The notes under the pieces are model-generated. The model worked only from the letters and a program-made list of their open reading frames with translations. It did no database searches and was not told where the DNA came from. This document shows positions 4,392 through 38,765 of a stretch of 40,584 bases of DNA, piece after piece. A program made the position numbers and the translations under genes. Numbering within the stretch: position 1 is the first letter of the stretch; the number at the start of each line of letters is the position of its first letter. Where the stretch lies: NCBI RefSeq assembly GCF_900180345.1, contig NZ_FXLV01000005.1:1-40584 (forward strand). Direction: 5' to 3'. This stretch comes from Bathymodiolus heckerae thiotrophic gill symbiont (GTDB taxonomy: Bacteria > Pseudomonadota > Gammaproteobacteria > PS1 > Pseudothioglobaceae).

Positions 4392-4760
4392 ACAAACCAT
4401 TGATTTAACAATATGGACTGTTGTTTAAAATTACCAGAATTTTATGCCAACTTTAATGGGTTAAATTACCCTTGTTTTTCCATTCCACATAGAAATGAGA
4501 ATACACCCGAGAAACTTGATAATAAGGAGTAGGGAAGGATTTATAACCCTTCTTTTTCCCGTCCATTCCCACAAGCAGAAAAAAGGTTTGCAATTTCTCT
4601 TAGTGTGTGAAGTCTGGCTTTGGGAAGGGTTACAAACCCTTCCCTACTTCGTGTTGTTATTTCCACGCATAGTATTGCTTTGTGTAAAAAACTCAAAAAA
4701 ACTATAAACCTTAGTATAAAATTCATCTCAGTGGTGAAAAATAGAAAAAAAATATGTATT
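4392..4760. other. Gene-free stretch with no recognised coding content
   Basis: Between the tRNA-Val terminator and the first MITE I see no credible gene. The two short open frames here run across the inverted repeat at 4528-4648 and have no family resemblance or Shine-Dalgarno. The remainder is AT-rich sequence without clear structure. Confidence 0.6.
4528..4648. repeat. Imperfect inverted repeat with 25-bp arms
   Basis: The arms are 4528-4552 and 4624-4648. Read on the same strand they match at 23 of 25 bases (AGTAGGGAAGG...AACCCTTC). Weaker similarity continues outward on both sides, to about 4490 and 4672. Each arm is itself nearly palindromic (GAAGGGTT...AACCCTTC). The roughly 70-bp interior contains no coding sequence. 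This could be a decayed small transposable element or a structured RNA; the sequence alone does not decide. Confidence 0.65.
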
Positions 4761-4921
4761 GAGACCTTTGCATAAATATGAATAATCATCAAAAATCCAC
4801 TTTTCACCCGCTTGGCGATTTTTTAAACCCAGCCTTAGCCCTGCTAGGACAAGGTTTAATAAAATCACCAATCTGGCAAAAATTGAATTTTGCTAATCAT
4901 CCCTATTTATGCAAAGGTCTC
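4761..4921 (+). mobile_element. MITE-like element, copy A (161 bp)
   Basis: It begins GAGACCTTTGCATAAATA and ends with the exact reverse complement of those 18 bases. Similarity between the two halves continues inward, so the whole element is a long imperfect palindrome around an internal segment at about 4830-4858. It carries no coding capacity. The flanking bases GTATT occur on both sides (4756-4760 and 4922-4926), consistent with a 5-bp target duplication. Copy B at 7754-7914 is its exact reverse complement over all 161 bases. It ends 25 bp before the deacetylase start codon. Confidence 0.9.
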
Positions 4922-7753: not shown

Positions 7754-7914
7754 GAGACCTTTGCATAAATAGGGATGATTAGCAAAATTCAATTTTTGCC
7801 AGATTGGTGATTTTATTAAACCTTGTCCTAGCAGGGCTAAGGCTGGGTTTAAAAAATCGCCAAGCGGGTGAAAAGTGGATTTTTGATGATTATTCATATT
7901 TATGCAAAGGTCTC
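7754..7914 (-). mobile_element. MITE-like element, copy B (161 bp)
   Basis: The exact reverse complement of copy A at 4761-4921 over its full length, including the 18-bp terminal inverted repeats. TAATA occurs on both sides (7749-7753 and 7915-7919), consistent with its own 5-bp target duplication, different from the GTATT at copy A. It lies about 140 bp upstream of the endonuclease start. The flanking 7613-7753 holds only the leader of that gene. Confidence 0.9.
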
Positions 7915-15755: not shown

Positions 15756-16922
15756 ATGATAATGGGCACGAAAACAGCGCCTGTGCGTCAGTCTGTGCAA
15801 TTTAACAAGAAGCTTTTAGATAAAAACGCACTGCGGGTGGTCAATACCATTCATAAAGCAGGGTTTGAGGTTTATTTAGTGGGTGGCTGTGTGCGAGATT
15901 TGCTACTGGGTTTAAAGCCTAAGGATTTTGATGTGGCAACCAATGCCAAGCCTGAGCAAGTGCACAAACTATTTAAACGCTCGCGTTTGATTGGCCGGCG
16001 TTTTCGCCTAGTACATGTGATGTTCGGCGCACGAGAGTTTATTGAGGTTGCCACTTTTCGCTCTGGCAAAGTGCAAACCGCTAAAAACGGCGTTATTACG
16101 AATGATAATTGTTATGGCAAGCTGGAAGAGGATGTGGTGCGTCGGGATTTTAATATTAACGCCCTATATTACGACATCCATAAGCAAGAAGTGATTGATT
16201 TTGTTGGTGGTTTAAAAGACCTTGAGGCAAGGGAAATCCATATGATTGGCGATGCTAAGCAGCGTTTTGAACAGGACCCTGTGCGTATGATTCGTGCCGT
16301 GCGTTTTAGCAAAAAATTAGGCGCAAAATTAAGTCCAGAAATCAATGCCTGTATTTTAGAACAGGCGCCATTGCTTGGCAATATATCCCCAGCACGCCTA
16401 TATGAAGAGTGCGTAAAGCTGTTTCAAAATGAATATTCTTTTGAGGTGTATGAACAATTAGAAAAATATGGCTTGTTGGCGTATTTGTTTGAACAAACTC
16501 GTAACAATGATTTTGTTAAAAAAGCGTGTATAAATACTGCCAATCGTATTAAACGCAATCAGTCAGTAACGCCAGCCTTTTTGTTTGCTGTGTTTTTGTG
16601 GCAAGCACAAAACGAGCGTTTTGCCCTGATTAAAAAGCGACAGCGCTCTTTTCATTTGGCAATGATGCAAGCCTGTGATGAAGTGATTATGCGCCAAATT
16701 AAACAAGTGTCCATTCCCAGATACTTGAGTGCTAGAATGAGAGATATTTGGATGATGCAAGCTAAACTGGAAAAAATGCCTCCTAAAAAAATAGAATTTT
16801 TACTACAACATCCACGCTTTAGAATGAGCTATGATTTTTTAGTATTGCGTAGCAAGAGCGTTAATCCAGAACTTAAAGCCACGGCAGAGTTTTGGACTAC
16901 AGCACAACAACGAGACGCATAA
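15756..16922 (+). CDS. pcnB: Poly(A) polymerase I
   Basis: A 388-residue class II nucleotidyltransferase. The signature GGCVRDLLLGLKPKDFDV (43-60) includes the catalytic D57 and D59. It continues with RRFRLVHVMF, FIEVATFRSG, DVVRRDFNINALYYD and the RNA-binding DPVRMIRAVRFSKKL. The RRF start of the RRFRLVHVMF motif favours PcnB over a CCA-adding enzyme. The protein is shorter than E. coli PcnB (465), chiefly at the basic C-terminus. I start at ATG 15756, because the open frame upstream overlaps queF; ATG 15762 is equally possible. It adds poly(A) tails that promote RNA decay. Confidence 0.9.
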   Translation: MIMGTKTAPVRQSVQFNKKLLDKNALRVVNTIHKAGFEVYLVGGCVRDLLLGLKPKDFDVATNAKPEQVHKLFKRSRLIGRRFRLVHVMFGAREFIEVATFRSGKVQTAKNGVITNDNCYGKLEEDVVRRDFNINALYYDIHKQEVIDFVGGLKDLEAREIHMIGDAKQRFEQDPVRMIRAVRFSKKLGAKLSPEINACILEQAPLLGNISPARLYEECVKLFQNEYSFEVYEQLEKYGLLAYLFEQTRNNDFVKKACINTANRIKRNQSVTPAFLFAVFLWQAQNERFALIKKRQRSFHLAMMQACDEVIMRQIKQVSIPRYLSARMRDIWMMQAKLEKMPPKKIEFLLQHPRFRMSYDFLVLRSKSVNPELKATAEFWTTAQQRDA

Positions 16923-16924
16923 TT

Positions 16925-17761
16925 ATGCAAAAGTCTGTTTTAATTACAGGTTGCTCCAGTGGCATTGGGTTGTGCGTAGCTTTAGGCTTACAGCAAGCAG
17001 GCTACCAAGTATTTGCCACTGCGAGGCAAAATAAGGATGTGGAACGACTTAAAACTCAGGGGTTTGAGGCATTGCAGTTAGATTTAGCTTCGTCTGAGTC
17101 AATCAATACGGCAATGAGTGCTGTTTTTGCAAAAACTGATAGACTTTATGGCTTAATTCATAACGGTGCTTATGGGCAAGTAGGGGCGTTGGAAGATGTG
17201 TCCCGCTATGCGTTAGAACAACAATTTCAAACCAATGTATTTGGTTGGCACGAATTAACCAATTTGGTTTTGCCAATAATGAAACGCCAAAATGAAGGGC
17301 GTATTATTTACCTAAGTTCAATATTAGGCTTTGTAGCAATGCCATTTCGTGGGTCGTATAATGCATCTAAATTTGCGATTGAAGGCTTGGTCAATACATT
17401 GCGTTTAGAATTGTCAAATACCCAAATTCAGTTGTCCTTAATCCAGCCTGGACCAATCGAATCTGAGTTTAGAGCCAATGCCTACAAGGCATTTTCCAAA
17501 CATATTGATAGGGAAAATAGCGATTATAAGACCAATTATCAAAAGATGGTTGAGCGCTTGCAATCAAAAAATTTGGCAGATTTTACTTTACCCGCAGAAG
17601 CGGTGCTAAAATGTTGCCTACATGCACTTAGTGCAAAGCAGGCAAAAATTCATTACCGGGTAACATTCCCAACAAAATTGTTTGCAATATTAATCAGACT
17701 GTTACCGACTTGGTTAATGGATAAGATACTAAATAAAGCGGGTAGCAGCGGAGAAAAATAA
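16925..17761 (+). CDS. Short-chain dehydrogenase/reductase family oxidoreductase
   Basis: About 278 residues. The NAD(P)-binding motif is TGCSSGIG (8-15), with the NNAG-like position as HNGAYG, the catalytic Ser in IYLSSILGF and the catalytic YxxxK in SYNASKF. The family is certain but the substrate is not. ATG 16925 lies 2 bp after the pcnB stop and agrees with the usual SDR N-terminus; an upstream in-frame start would overlap pcnB. Its TAA overlaps the xseB ATG (TAATG), so it is probably cotranslated with xseB. Confidence 0.88.
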   Translation: MQKSVLITGCSSGIGLCVALGLQQAGYQVFATARQNKDVERLKTQGFEALQLDLASSESINTAMSAVFAKTDRLYGLIHNGAYGQVGALEDVSRYALEQQFQTNVFGWHELTNLVLPIMKRQNEGRIIYLSSILGFVAMPFRGSYNASKFAIEGLVNTLRLELSNTQIQLSLIQPGPIESEFRANAYKAFSKHIDRENSDYKTNYQKMVERLQSKNLADFTLPAEAVLKCCLHALSAKQAKIHYRVTFPTKLFAILIRLLPTWLMDKILNKAGSSGEK

Positions 17762-33823: not shown

Positions 33824-34249
33824 TTGGATGTAGCACAGCAAATATTGAACTTAATTATGCCTTTTGTCAAGGAGGGTAAAATTTTGCCCAGAACTTATGC
33901 GCAAATTAGTAATAATATTACAGATTTTGTATGGATTGAGCAGTCTGGTAGATTGGTTGCTTGCGTAGGGTTAAAAGACTGCCAAGAAGATGGTATGGGT
34001 GAAATTTATGCTTTGGCAGTGTCAGAAAAAGTGCAAAATCAAGGAATTTCAGTTGAATTATTAAACAAAGTTATGCAAAAAGCATTTGCTGATAATTTTT
34101 CCAAAGTATTCGCATTATCCAAGCATAATGCTGAATGGTTTTTAAAACAGGGTTTTGTAAAAATGGAAATTAGTGAATTACCAAAAAAACGCCAAGATTT
34201 GTTTGACCATCAGCGTAATTCATCTGTCTTTTTTAAGGACATATTGTAA
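33824..34249 (+). CDS. GNAT acetyltransferase, N-acetylglutamate synthase-like
   Basis: A protein of about 141 residues matching the acetyltransferase domain of ArgA. It has LIMPFVKEGKILPRT at the start, GEIYALAVSEKVQNQGISVELLNKV as the acetyl-CoA loop, EWFLKQGFVKMEISELPKKRQDLFDHQRNSSVFFK at the end. The amino acid kinase domain of full ArgA is absent, so this is a stand-alone NAGS-like protein; the arginine-pathway role is inference. The start is unusual: the frame is closed by TAA at 33815, the only upstream codon is TTG 33824, and no Shine-Dalgarno is seen; Met13 (33860) is the alternative. Its stop overlaps the rnt start (TAATG). Confidence 0.78.
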   Translation: MDVAQQILNLIMPFVKEGKILPRTYAQISNNITDFVWIEQSGRLVACVGLKDCQEDGMGEIYALAVSEKVQNQGISVELLNKVMQKAFADNFSKVFALSKHNAEWFLKQGFVKMEISELPKKRQDLFDHQRNSSVFFKDIL

Positions 34250-34839
34250 TGAAAATTAAACAACGCATTCGGGGGTATTTACCCGTTGTAATTGATATAG
34301 AAACTGGTGGTTTTAATGAAAAAACCGATGCTATGCTTGAGGTTTGTGCCATTATAATTGGCATTAATAATGACGGTGTATTTTATCCAAAAGACCCACA
34401 ACATTTTCATATAGAACCCTTCAAAGGTGCCAATCTTGAACCGTCAGCACTCAAATTTAATGGCATTGATGTGTATAATCCATTGCGTATGGCGGTTACT
34501 GAAAAACAGGCGCTTAGTGAGATTTTTCAAACTGTTCATATGGAAATAAAAAATGAAGAATGCACTCGTGCCATTTTAGTTGGGCATAATGCTTTTTTTG
34601 ATTTGGGTTTTTTGCGTGCTGCCACCGAGAGGAGTAAGCTTAAAAGCCCTTTTCATCAATTTTCAACCATTGACACGGTTAGCCTTTCAGCGTTATATTA
34701 TGGCGAAACCGTTTTGGCTAAGGCGATGCGTGTGGCCAATATTGAGTGGAACGATGCCAACGCTCATTCTGCACTTTATGACACACAAAAAACTGCCGAA
34801 CTTTTTTGTCAAATTTTCAACACCCAGCAGTATAATTAA
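34249..34839 (+). CDS. rnt: Ribonuclease T
   Basis: A 196-residue DEDD exonuclease that trims the 3' ends of tRNA and other stable RNAs. ExoI (VIDIETGGFNEKTD), ExoII (VGHNAFFDLGFL) and ExoIII (NAHSALYDTQKTAELF) are present in order, and the length is about that of the family. It is coupled to the acetyltransferase gene by a one-base overlap. Its TAA overlaps the plsC stop by 4 bp at a MITE terminus scar. Confidence 0.95.
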   Translation: MKIKQRIRGYLPVVIDIETGGFNEKTDAMLEVCAIIIGINNDGVFYPKDPQHFHIEPFKGANLEPSALKFNGIDVYNPLRMAVTEKQALSEIFQTVHMEIKNEECTRAILVGHNAFFDLGFLRAATERSKLKSPFHQFSTIDTVSLSALYYGETVLAKAMRVANIEWNDANAHSALYDTQKTAELFCQIFNTQQYN

Positions 34840-35561
34840 TTATGCAAAGGTCTCTCTGAGTAAGTCTCACTTGATTTTTTTTCAGTCCATTCTTTCACTT
34901 CCTGAGTGAGTATTGTGGCTGATTTCCCTGTAATGCTAATAGGTTTGCCAATCACCACAGTAATTGTGCCGGGATATTTGATAAAACTGCCTTTAGGCCA
35001 TAATTTACCTGCATTGTGATAAATAGGGCAAATATCACAACCTGCCTTTTGAGCAATGGCAATCCCTCCTCTTTGATAGTTGCCAAGTTGCCCATAGGGT
35101 TGGCGTGTTCCTTCGGGAAATATTACCACAAAAATATTTTCTTGAATACGGGCAACGCCTTGTTTAATAACTTTTTTAAGTGCTTTAAGTTTATCACCAC
35201 GGTTGATAATAATTGGCTTGAGTAGCGCCAAACCCCAGCCAAAAACAGGTATCCACAACAATTCTCGTTTCAACACCCAAGATTGTTGTGTAAATATTGT
35301 TTGAAAAGCAAATGATTCCCAGGTTGATTGATGGTTGGAAATAATAACACAAGCCGATATCGGGATGTTTTCTTTGCCAATTACTTTGGTTGTAATGTTG
35401 CAAGTAATGCGTAACCACCAGATATTAAAAATAGCCCATTGTGATATTATTTTATAGCGAATGTTGGAAGGGAATAAAGCGGTTAGCATGGCAAATAAAA
35501 ACACAATAAAGGAAAAAATACACATTCCAAGGAAAAAGATAAGTGAACGAATTAGTAGCAT
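34836..35561 (-). CDS. plsC: 1-acyl-sn-glycerol-3-phosphate acyltransferase
   Basis: A 241-residue inner-membrane enzyme that adds the second acyl chain to make phosphatidic acid. An N-terminal hydrophobic segment (about 5-30) is followed by the acyltransferase box SNHQSTWESF (a His-x4-Glu form of HX4D), the glycerolipid-binding FPEGTRQPYG and the later GGIAIAQKAGCDICPI. Residues 236-241 (ERPLHN) and the stop codon are encoded by a MITE terminus at 34841-34854, so the natural C-terminus may have been changed. With PlsX in this window it supports phospholipid synthesis. Confidence 0.93.
   Translation of the reverse strand: MLLIRSLIFFLGMCIFSFIVFLFAMLTALFPSNIRYKIISQWAIFNIWWLRITCNITTKVIGKENIPISACVIISNHQSTWESFAFQTIFTQQSWVLKRELLWIPVFGWGLALLKPIIINRGDKLKALKKVIKQGVARIQENIFVVIFPEGTRQPYGQLGNYQRGGIAIAQKAGCDICPIYHNAGKLWPKGSFIKYPGTITVVIGKPISITGKSATILTQEVKEWTEKKSSETYSERPLHN
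34841..34854 (-). mobile_element. Solitary MITE terminal repeat at the rnt/plsC junction
   Basis: The plus-strand TATGCAAAGGTCTC is the outermost 14 bases of the MITE terminal repeat with the outer end to the right, except that no second terminus or interior follows to the left. It lies within the last codons of plsC. Loss of the rest of an element by deletion is the likely explanation; a chance match of 14 bases is possible but unlikely, given three other copies nearby. Confidence 0.6.
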
Positions 35562-35634
35562 ATTTTATTTTTTTATTAAGTATTTTTTTAATTTTCAGAT
35601 GCTGGAAAAGCAATCCAGTAATTTTATTTTATAT

Positions 35635-35735
35635 GAGACCTTTGCATAAATATGAATGATTGTAAAAATTCAATTTTTTGCCAAGTCAACGAAAAGCAGA
35701 TTTATGGTAATTATTCATATTTATGCAAAGGTTTC
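35635..35735 (-). mobile_element. MITE-like element, copy C (101 bp, internally deleted)
   Basis: It begins GAGACCTTTGCATAAATA and ends with TATTTATGCAAAGGTTTC, one base off a perfect terminal repeat. The left 50 bp resemble copy B read left to right (AATGATT, AAAATTCAATTTTTTGCCA) and the right 35 bp also follow copy B (AAAGCAGATTTATGGTAATTATTC), with about 60 bp of the middle missing. The flanks TATAT and TATAG are only 4/5 alike, so a target duplication is weak. It lies between plsC and gph. Confidence 0.82.
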
Positions 35736-35852
35736 TATAGCGTAAAAGCGACAGGTAAAATGCCTAGAATACTTGCACAACGGCATGGGTTTAAAATTCT
35801 AAATAAGGTTGCTAATGATTGCAAAACAAACAAATAAGTAAAAAATAATTAT

Positions 35853-36491
35853 ATGGATATCAACACTATTTTATTTGATTTAGATGGCACTTTGATTGAT
35901 ACAGCACCAGATTTGGCGTATGCACTGAATATACTGTTGTCAGAAAATAGCTTAGAAAAAAAGTTGTATAACGACATTAAACCCTTGGTGTCCTTTGGCG
36001 GCAAAGCCTTGGTAAGTATGGGGTTTGATTGCGATGAAGCACACCCTGAATTCAGCAAGAGACACCAAAGATTGTTAGAAATTTATACTGATAATATTGA
36101 CAAACACTCGGTAACTTTTCCTGGTATTGATGCCTTGATAATGCTGATTAAAAAGCGAGGATTGTTTTGGGGTATTGTGACTAACAAACCTGAGAATTTA
36201 ACCCAACTATTGCTAAATAAATTAGACATTAAGCCAGATGTTGTGGTGTGCGGTAACACCTTAAAACACAATAAACCACATCCTGCGCCACTGCTTTATG
36301 CTTGTGCACAATTAGCGGTTAAACCAAAGTCATGTTTATTTATTGGTGATGATAAAAACGATATGATTGCAGGCAAAAATGCAGGCATTAAAACCGTAGC
36401 AGTGGCTTATGGTTATGGTAAAGTTGAGCAGGATTGGGGTTATGATTTTTTGGTTAACACGGTTAAGGAGTTAGAAAAATGGATATTGTAA
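35853..36491 (+). CDS. gph: Phosphoglycolate phosphatase (HAD family)
   Basis: A 212-residue HAD hydrolase. Motif I is LFDLDGTLID (with the nucleophile Asp), motif II is the Thr in GIVTNKPENL, and motifs III and IV are NKPHPAPLLYA and FIGDDKNDMIAGKNAG. It fits Gph, which hydrolyses 2-phosphoglycolate made by DNA repair or, in a Calvin-cycle organism, by RuBisCO oxygenation. Length and motifs fit Gph, but the closely related pyrophosphatase PpaX or MupP cannot be excluded without comparison. rmuC starts inside its last codons (13-bp overlap). Confidence 0.85.
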   Translation: MDINTILFDLDGTLIDTAPDLAYALNILLSENSLEKKLYNDIKPLVSFGGKALVSMGFDCDEAHPEFSKRHQRLLEIYTDNIDKHSVTFPGIDALIMLIKKRGLFWGIVTNKPENLTQLLLNKLDIKPDVVVCGNTLKHNKPHPAPLLYACAQLAVKPKSCLFIGDDKNDMIAGKNAGIKTVAVAYGYGKVEQDWGYDFLVNTVKELEKWIL

Positions 36492-38541: not shown

Positions 38542-38758
38542 TTGATGCAAAAATCAACAACATTAAATAAATAATAAAGCTGGCCATGCTTAGCACGAAA
38601 GAAAAAGCGCCAATCGGTGTCCACAGAGTTTCGTGTAACAGACCTTGGGCATCCACATATATTGGATAAAAAATTCTTTGAATCAGCACAGAAACAACAG
38701 TCAAGAATAGAAAAAATAAAGAAATTTTCAAGATTATGTTTTTAAAAGACTTTTGCAT
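38522..38758 (-). CDS. Small two-helix membrane protein, DUF3955-like
   Basis: A 78-residue protein with two hydrophobic segments (about 9-26 and 47-70) and a short conserved-looking loop VDAQGLLHETLWTPIGAFSF. That loop resembles the DUF3955 pattern (VD.xG.LhE.....P.G), a family of unknown function; the match is from memory and needs an HMM check. It is convergent with the SDR, overlapping it by 20 bp, and lies 7 bp downstream of suhB on the same strand. A real gene is likely, but the function cannot be named. Confidence 0.6.
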   Translation of the reverse strand: MQKSFKNIILKISLFFLFLTVVSVLIQRIFYPIYVDAQGLLHETLWTPIGAFSFVLSMASFIIYLMLLIFASIKRRIK

Positions 38759-38765
38759 AAAACTC

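Follow-up and report, generated by a model that had tools for sequence, protein, structure and literature searches.

The last residues of the acyltransferase PlsC in the thiotrophic gill symbiont of Bathymodiolus heckerae very probably go back to an ancestral MITE insertion at the 3' ends of plsC and rnt, followed by decay of the element and a frameshift that together gave the enzyme its ERPLHN tail. It is a clean case of a transposon remnant ending a conserved enzyme, and a near relative carries an intact copy. The junction of both genes lies in the 40,584-nucleotide stretch of DNA analysed here, referred to as the window.

The plsC-rnt junction and the bare terminal repeat

The following features of the junction are considered:

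34836-35561, minus strand: plsC, 241 aa, 1-acylglycerol-3-phosphate acyltransferase family (ORF and domain/profile matches)
34249-34839, plus strand: rnt, ribonuclease T, 196 aa (ORF and TIGR01298)
34836-34839, no strand: TTAA, the 4-bp overlap of the plsC and rnt ORFs, with both stop codons (sequence and ORFs)
34840-34854, minus strand: bare terminal inverted repeat (TIR) of the MITE family, exact over 15 of 15 bases (GAGACCTTTGCATAA)
34875-34882, minus strand: run of eight A in plsC, seven in the relative G004, a +1 frameshift (sequence and alignment of the relatives)

Both genes are convergent and their 3' ends share the 4 bp at 34836-34839, as the earlier note on this DNA had observed. From the ORF translations, PlsC ends in ...KKSSETYSERPLHN and Rnt in ...NTQQYN, each followed by the stop. 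Rnt matches TIGR01298 with 275.5 bits (cut-off 246.2). In PlsC, Pfam PF01553 (Acyltransferase) spans residues 59-181, and the match to TIGR00530 (E 9.8e-24) is under the curated cut-off. The ERPLHN tail comes after the end of the acyltransferase domain at residue 181. An Rfam scan of 34600-35900 gave no match, and a terminator scan at the junction found none.

The 15 bases GAGACCTTTGCATAA at 34840-34854 (minus strand) encode R-P-L-H of the tail and contribute to its E and N codons, and the longer pattern GAGACCTTTGCATAAT is matched exactly at 34839-34854 on the same strand. When up to three mismatches are allowed, the latter has 9 matches in the window against 0.62 expected, a number reached by none of 100 shuffles. 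Throughout the genome (1,444,397 bases) the 15-mer with at most one mismatch marks 153 + 147 = 300 ends, whereas the reversed-pattern control gives 0 + 0, so the match in the tail is not due to chance. That these bases are a coincidence or ancestral plsC sequence is scarcely credible: the element-free spacer of G006 (AAGACTTGTCTAGGATTATCAACT) does align loosely with the remnant, and another match in the window, at 16922-16937, resembles a gene start, but the perfect 15-base match against no control match in the genome, and the complete elements borne by G004 and G001 at this same junction, refute it in practice.

Base 16 at the remnant is T (34839) while complete copies read GCATAAA, and the TIR is therefore 15 bases long. 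Outside it lie this T and the PlsC stop TAA (34836-34838). The earlier note had assigned ERPLHN and the stop alike to the MITE terminal repeat; the exact repeat and the 300 genomic ends bear out the first part, and the stop falls outside the repeat. This TAA lies within TTAATTATA, aligned to the right target copy TAACT of G001 and to AATT in G004, and belongs to the host flank, probably to the second target-site copy. Likewise, TTAA (34836-34839) is probably part of a right-hand target-site copy TAATT that aligns to TAACT in G001. In the window genome, G000, no left target copy can be recognised (TCAGA, vs TAATT on the right), and the remnant retains no recognisable target-duplication pair; because of this, its identification with the insertion seen in G004 rests on position and phylogeny. 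One T at the deletion breakpoint is unaccounted for in G000 and its sister G009.

The junction in related genomes and its proposed history

Twelve genomes of the genus were compared. PlsC is present in 11 of them and the plsC-rnt junction is readable in ten, that of G002 running off its contig. The bare TIR and ERPLHN occur in G000 and G009, a complete element is found in G004 and G001, and the remaining six of the ten (G003, G005, G006, G007, G008 and G010) have no element at this place. The complete copy that the earlier note had anticipated in a relative thus exists twice: G004, whose PlsC is 84% identical, has an 81-bp element that has decayed, with changes in its left TIR, and G001 (L012) has one of 161 bp with perfect TIRs and a perfect TAACT/TAACT duplication. 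The PlsC tails vary in length and sequence across the 11 genomes. The native tails of the relatives (KLT, KLA, LNY, AEH and AES among them) differ from ERPLHN, as had been predicted, though they are shorter where the prediction was of longer ones. ERPLHN itself was found in 2 of the 11 proteins, those of the window genome and G009, and the case named as refuting in the earlier note, the same ending in distant PlsC proteins lacking the MITE, did not occur among these 11. The plsC/rnt overlap is 23 bp in G003, G005 and G008.

The complete elements take part in the stop codons of these genes. In G004 the rnt stop TGA draws its GA from the element and, judging by the alignment, the plsC stop TAG probably draws its G from it; in G001 the rnt stop TAG draws its G from the element.

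In the PlsC tree G000, G009 and G004 form a clade with support 100/100, for which a single insertion suffices, and G001 stands among the others. Since the G001 copy is perfect whereas that of G004 is decayed, and G001 lies outside the clade, two insertions have probably taken place at one 5-bp site, that of G001 being younger and independent. The tree needs 2 changes, and a single change is still allowed in 22% of 200 bootstrap trees. It might also be thought that the bare end of G000 and G009 comes from an insertion separate from that of G004, given that the left flanks are unlike (CTCAGA vs CTTA) and that G001 probably shows repeated use of the site. This is rather unlikely, because the three genomes fall in one clade (100/100), they have the right flank (T)AATTATA in common, and one possible alignment reduces the difference between the left flanks to a single substitution and a GA repeat unit.

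The claim that a MITE decayed to one end gave PlsC its new tail agrees with the complete elements of G004 and G001, but it was incomplete: the alignment indicates that the tail needs a frameshift besides the TIR, the expansion from A7 to A8 apparently moving the plsC ORF into the ERPLHN frame. The run has eight A in both G000 and G009, and this length is known from these two assemblies only. The stretch from the GAA codon to the native stop measures 27 nt in G004 and in G001, against 28 nt to the equivalent CAG in G000 and G009. An alternative alignment puts the gap of G001 elsewhere, for which reason these lengths are the firmer argument for the frameshift. In the window DNA the present frame reads ...KKSSETYSERPLHN and the native frame, in the other register, ...KNQVRLTQRDLCIINYTAGC, each closed by a stop. 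Of 13 altered residues, only about 5-6 come from the TIR. The PlsC tail appears to have been shaped jointly by the frameshift, the loss of the stop (TAG to CAG) and the deletion within the element, with no order implied.

The preferred history, an ancestral insertion with later decay and frameshift, would run as follows. The ancestor shared by G000, G009 and G004 would have received a short MITE at the touching 3' ends of the convergent genes, with a stop preserved for plsC and for rnt. The G000/G009 lineage would then have lost about 65 bp relative to the 81-bp copy of G004, including the second TIR; in whichever order, the A-run some 20 bases further upstream would have gained one A and CAG would have replaced the former TAG. 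PlsC would in this way leave its old frame, pass through the 15-bp TIR, translated as (E)RPLHN, and terminate at TAA in the flank that was kept. None of the genomes compared shows an intermediate state.

The tail is most likely neutral. It is highly unlikely that the new C-terminus is adaptive and alters the function or stability of PlsC: the ORF has stayed open in two genomes and the tail of G009 matches that of G000 save for one synonymous change, but a single change is too few to reveal constraint when both loci differ at 34 of 3,723 columns, and the tails are variable across the 11 genomes.

The MITE family and its insertions at gene ends

Three complete copies are present in the window:

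35635-35735, no strand: 101 bp, 73 bp upstream of the plsC start, target copies TATAT/TATAG, hairpin z -8.67
4761-4921, no strand: 161 bp, target duplication GTATT
7754-7914, no strand: 161 bp, inverted with respect to 4761-4921 and 100% complementary to it, target duplication TAATA

Their TIR arms measure 44-49 nt. The two 161-bp copies flank about 2.8 kb with three long ORFs, and recombination between them could flip this segment. Separately, a 32-bp inverted repeat (84%) at 4521-4552 and 4624-4655 is unlike the MITE ends, and a 23-bp inverted repeat (96%) lies near both contig ends (245-267 and 40455-40477), which suggests a possible break of the assembly at a different repeat family.

A first sample of the symbiont's own genome (420,872 bases) gave 31 TIR pairings, equal to 29 non-redundant elements, and 22 of the 31 have a perfect 5-bp duplication. 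In a larger set of 2,638,175 bases from three genomes the duplication is perfect in 160 of 241 pairings, 133 of these 160 being 161 bp long. The family is that of a MITE: short, high in copy number, devoid of its own transposase, bounded by terminal inverted repeats and flanked by a target-site duplication. Of the 12 genus genomes, 11 contain the exact 15-mer, with copy numbers running from 0 (G011) to 572 (G001). Its TIR, GAGACCTTTGCA, is of the IS5-family type, as in ISNme1, according to a table in PMC4596501. An element of 1284 bp in G001, with matching TIRs and the target duplication CATTC, holds a 179-aa transposase fragment (Pfam DUF772) whose best match is IS5_4 (97.4 bits, cut-off 140), followed by IS1182 (80.6 bits, cut-off 270), both below cut-off; no intact transposase was seen between such TIRs in the sampled sequence.

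The 81-bp copy of G004 folds into a long hairpin of -28.3 kcal/mol (z -6.27), which none of 200 shuffles equalled, and so does the 101-bp copy of the window (z -8.67); the G000 junction has no hairpin excess (z 0.49, 138 of 200 shuffles as good). An intact element might act as a bidirectional terminator between convergent genes.

Seven solo ends with at most one mismatch were found in the 420,872-base sample; two lie close to contig starts, two at the ends of sampled stretches and one runs into the interior of an element. Only the window remnant and L028:6755 look like bare ends, with L040:113, near a contig start, possibly another. Two further candidates in the window were discarded as solo ends: 16922-16937, which by eye resembles the gene start MQKSVLITG, and 38746-38761, with 3 mismatches and probably due to chance.

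The family is concentrated at the 3' ends of genes. In the same sample, a mechanical ORF ends inside or within 12 bp of 11 of the 29 elements. Three of these ORFs (95, 92 and 147 aa; L028:761-921, L028:2494-2654 and L032:303-462) end within the TIR in ETFA and a stop, and some of them, at least, resemble truncated genes. In fmt and nhaA the stop receives its last base from the start of a MITE (TA|G) and stands in place of TAA (L027:7812-7972, L037:11873-12047). An insertion inside a stop can rebuild it because the TIR begins with GAG.

Insertion statistics were obtained on rebuilt empty sites in the 2,638,175 bases of the three genomes, with a 5-mer-matched expectation; the ORFs are mechanical (at least 150 aa, greedy), so that the null expectations are approximate and correct only in part for stop codons being AT-rich. 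Among insertions not interior to an ORF, 27 of 132 lie 3-30 bases past an ORF end (8.3 expected). Insertions inside a stop codon account for 11 of 160 rebuilt sites, and all 11 re-create a stop. Non-interior cases number 6 of 85 in the discovery set (0.83 expected), 1 of 47 in the confirmation set (0.23 expected, Poisson P 0.21, not significant) and 7 of 132 overall (1.02 expected); when sites overlapping a second ORF are included, the counts are 9/108, 2/52 and 11/160. Compared with the next six positions, the stop positions received 11 of 23 insertions in 2 of 8 positions (P 0.015). The preference for stop codons stays a lead, as the confirmation set by itself is not significant.

A tentative and somewhat doubtful extension is that this family uses stops as safe landing sites. 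Its GAG ends would rebuild TGA or TAG after T or TA, and other frames would often stop soon (ETFA, RPLHKYE); copies would accumulate at 3' ends with repeated hits, their decay would give new tails, and the hairpin could end transcription both ways. If true, a stop-rebuilding MITE could pile up cheaply at gene ends and be a source of new C-termini in symbiont genomes.

Comparison with known systems

Among the papers listed by literature searches on Bathymodiolus symbiont MITEs, none describes this family in its title or the displayed opening of its abstract, and among those listed for stop codons rebuilt by element ends none, judged in the same way, describes such a case. In another symbiont, a MITE derived from an IS982-family element is mentioned (PMC9769881). 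IS5-family-type MITEs with the TIR GAGACCTTTGCA are listed as BrickBuilt in Porphyromonas gingivalis and ATR/ISNme1 in Neisseria; they share the first 12 TIR bases with the symbiont MITE, the comparison covering the TIRs, and the target duplication is given as variable in BrickBuilt whereas it is 5 bp here (PMC4596501).

With regard to protein tails, RU-1, a small MITE-like repeat, is described at the Erwinia amidase gene ECA3499, whose protein ends at residue 496 instead of about 461 (PMC2759123). As in PlsC, the normal stop was lost through a small mobile sequence, which extended the protein by a tail past the conserved domain; unlike the PlsC remnant, RU-1 belongs to another element family and its tail is much longer (PMC2759123). 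A second case is QMITE2 at enhC of Coxiella burnetii Dugway, reported as a MITE that lies at the 3' end of the gene and supplies 33 C-terminal amino acids (PMC5896051). There too the stop is immediately downstream and an indel decides whether the tail is read, but those 33 residues come from a longer stretch of the element, whereas PlsC keeps a 15-bp end and about 5-6 residues (PMC5896051). MITE-donated protein tails are therefore already published, and PlsC is an additional, well-supported case.
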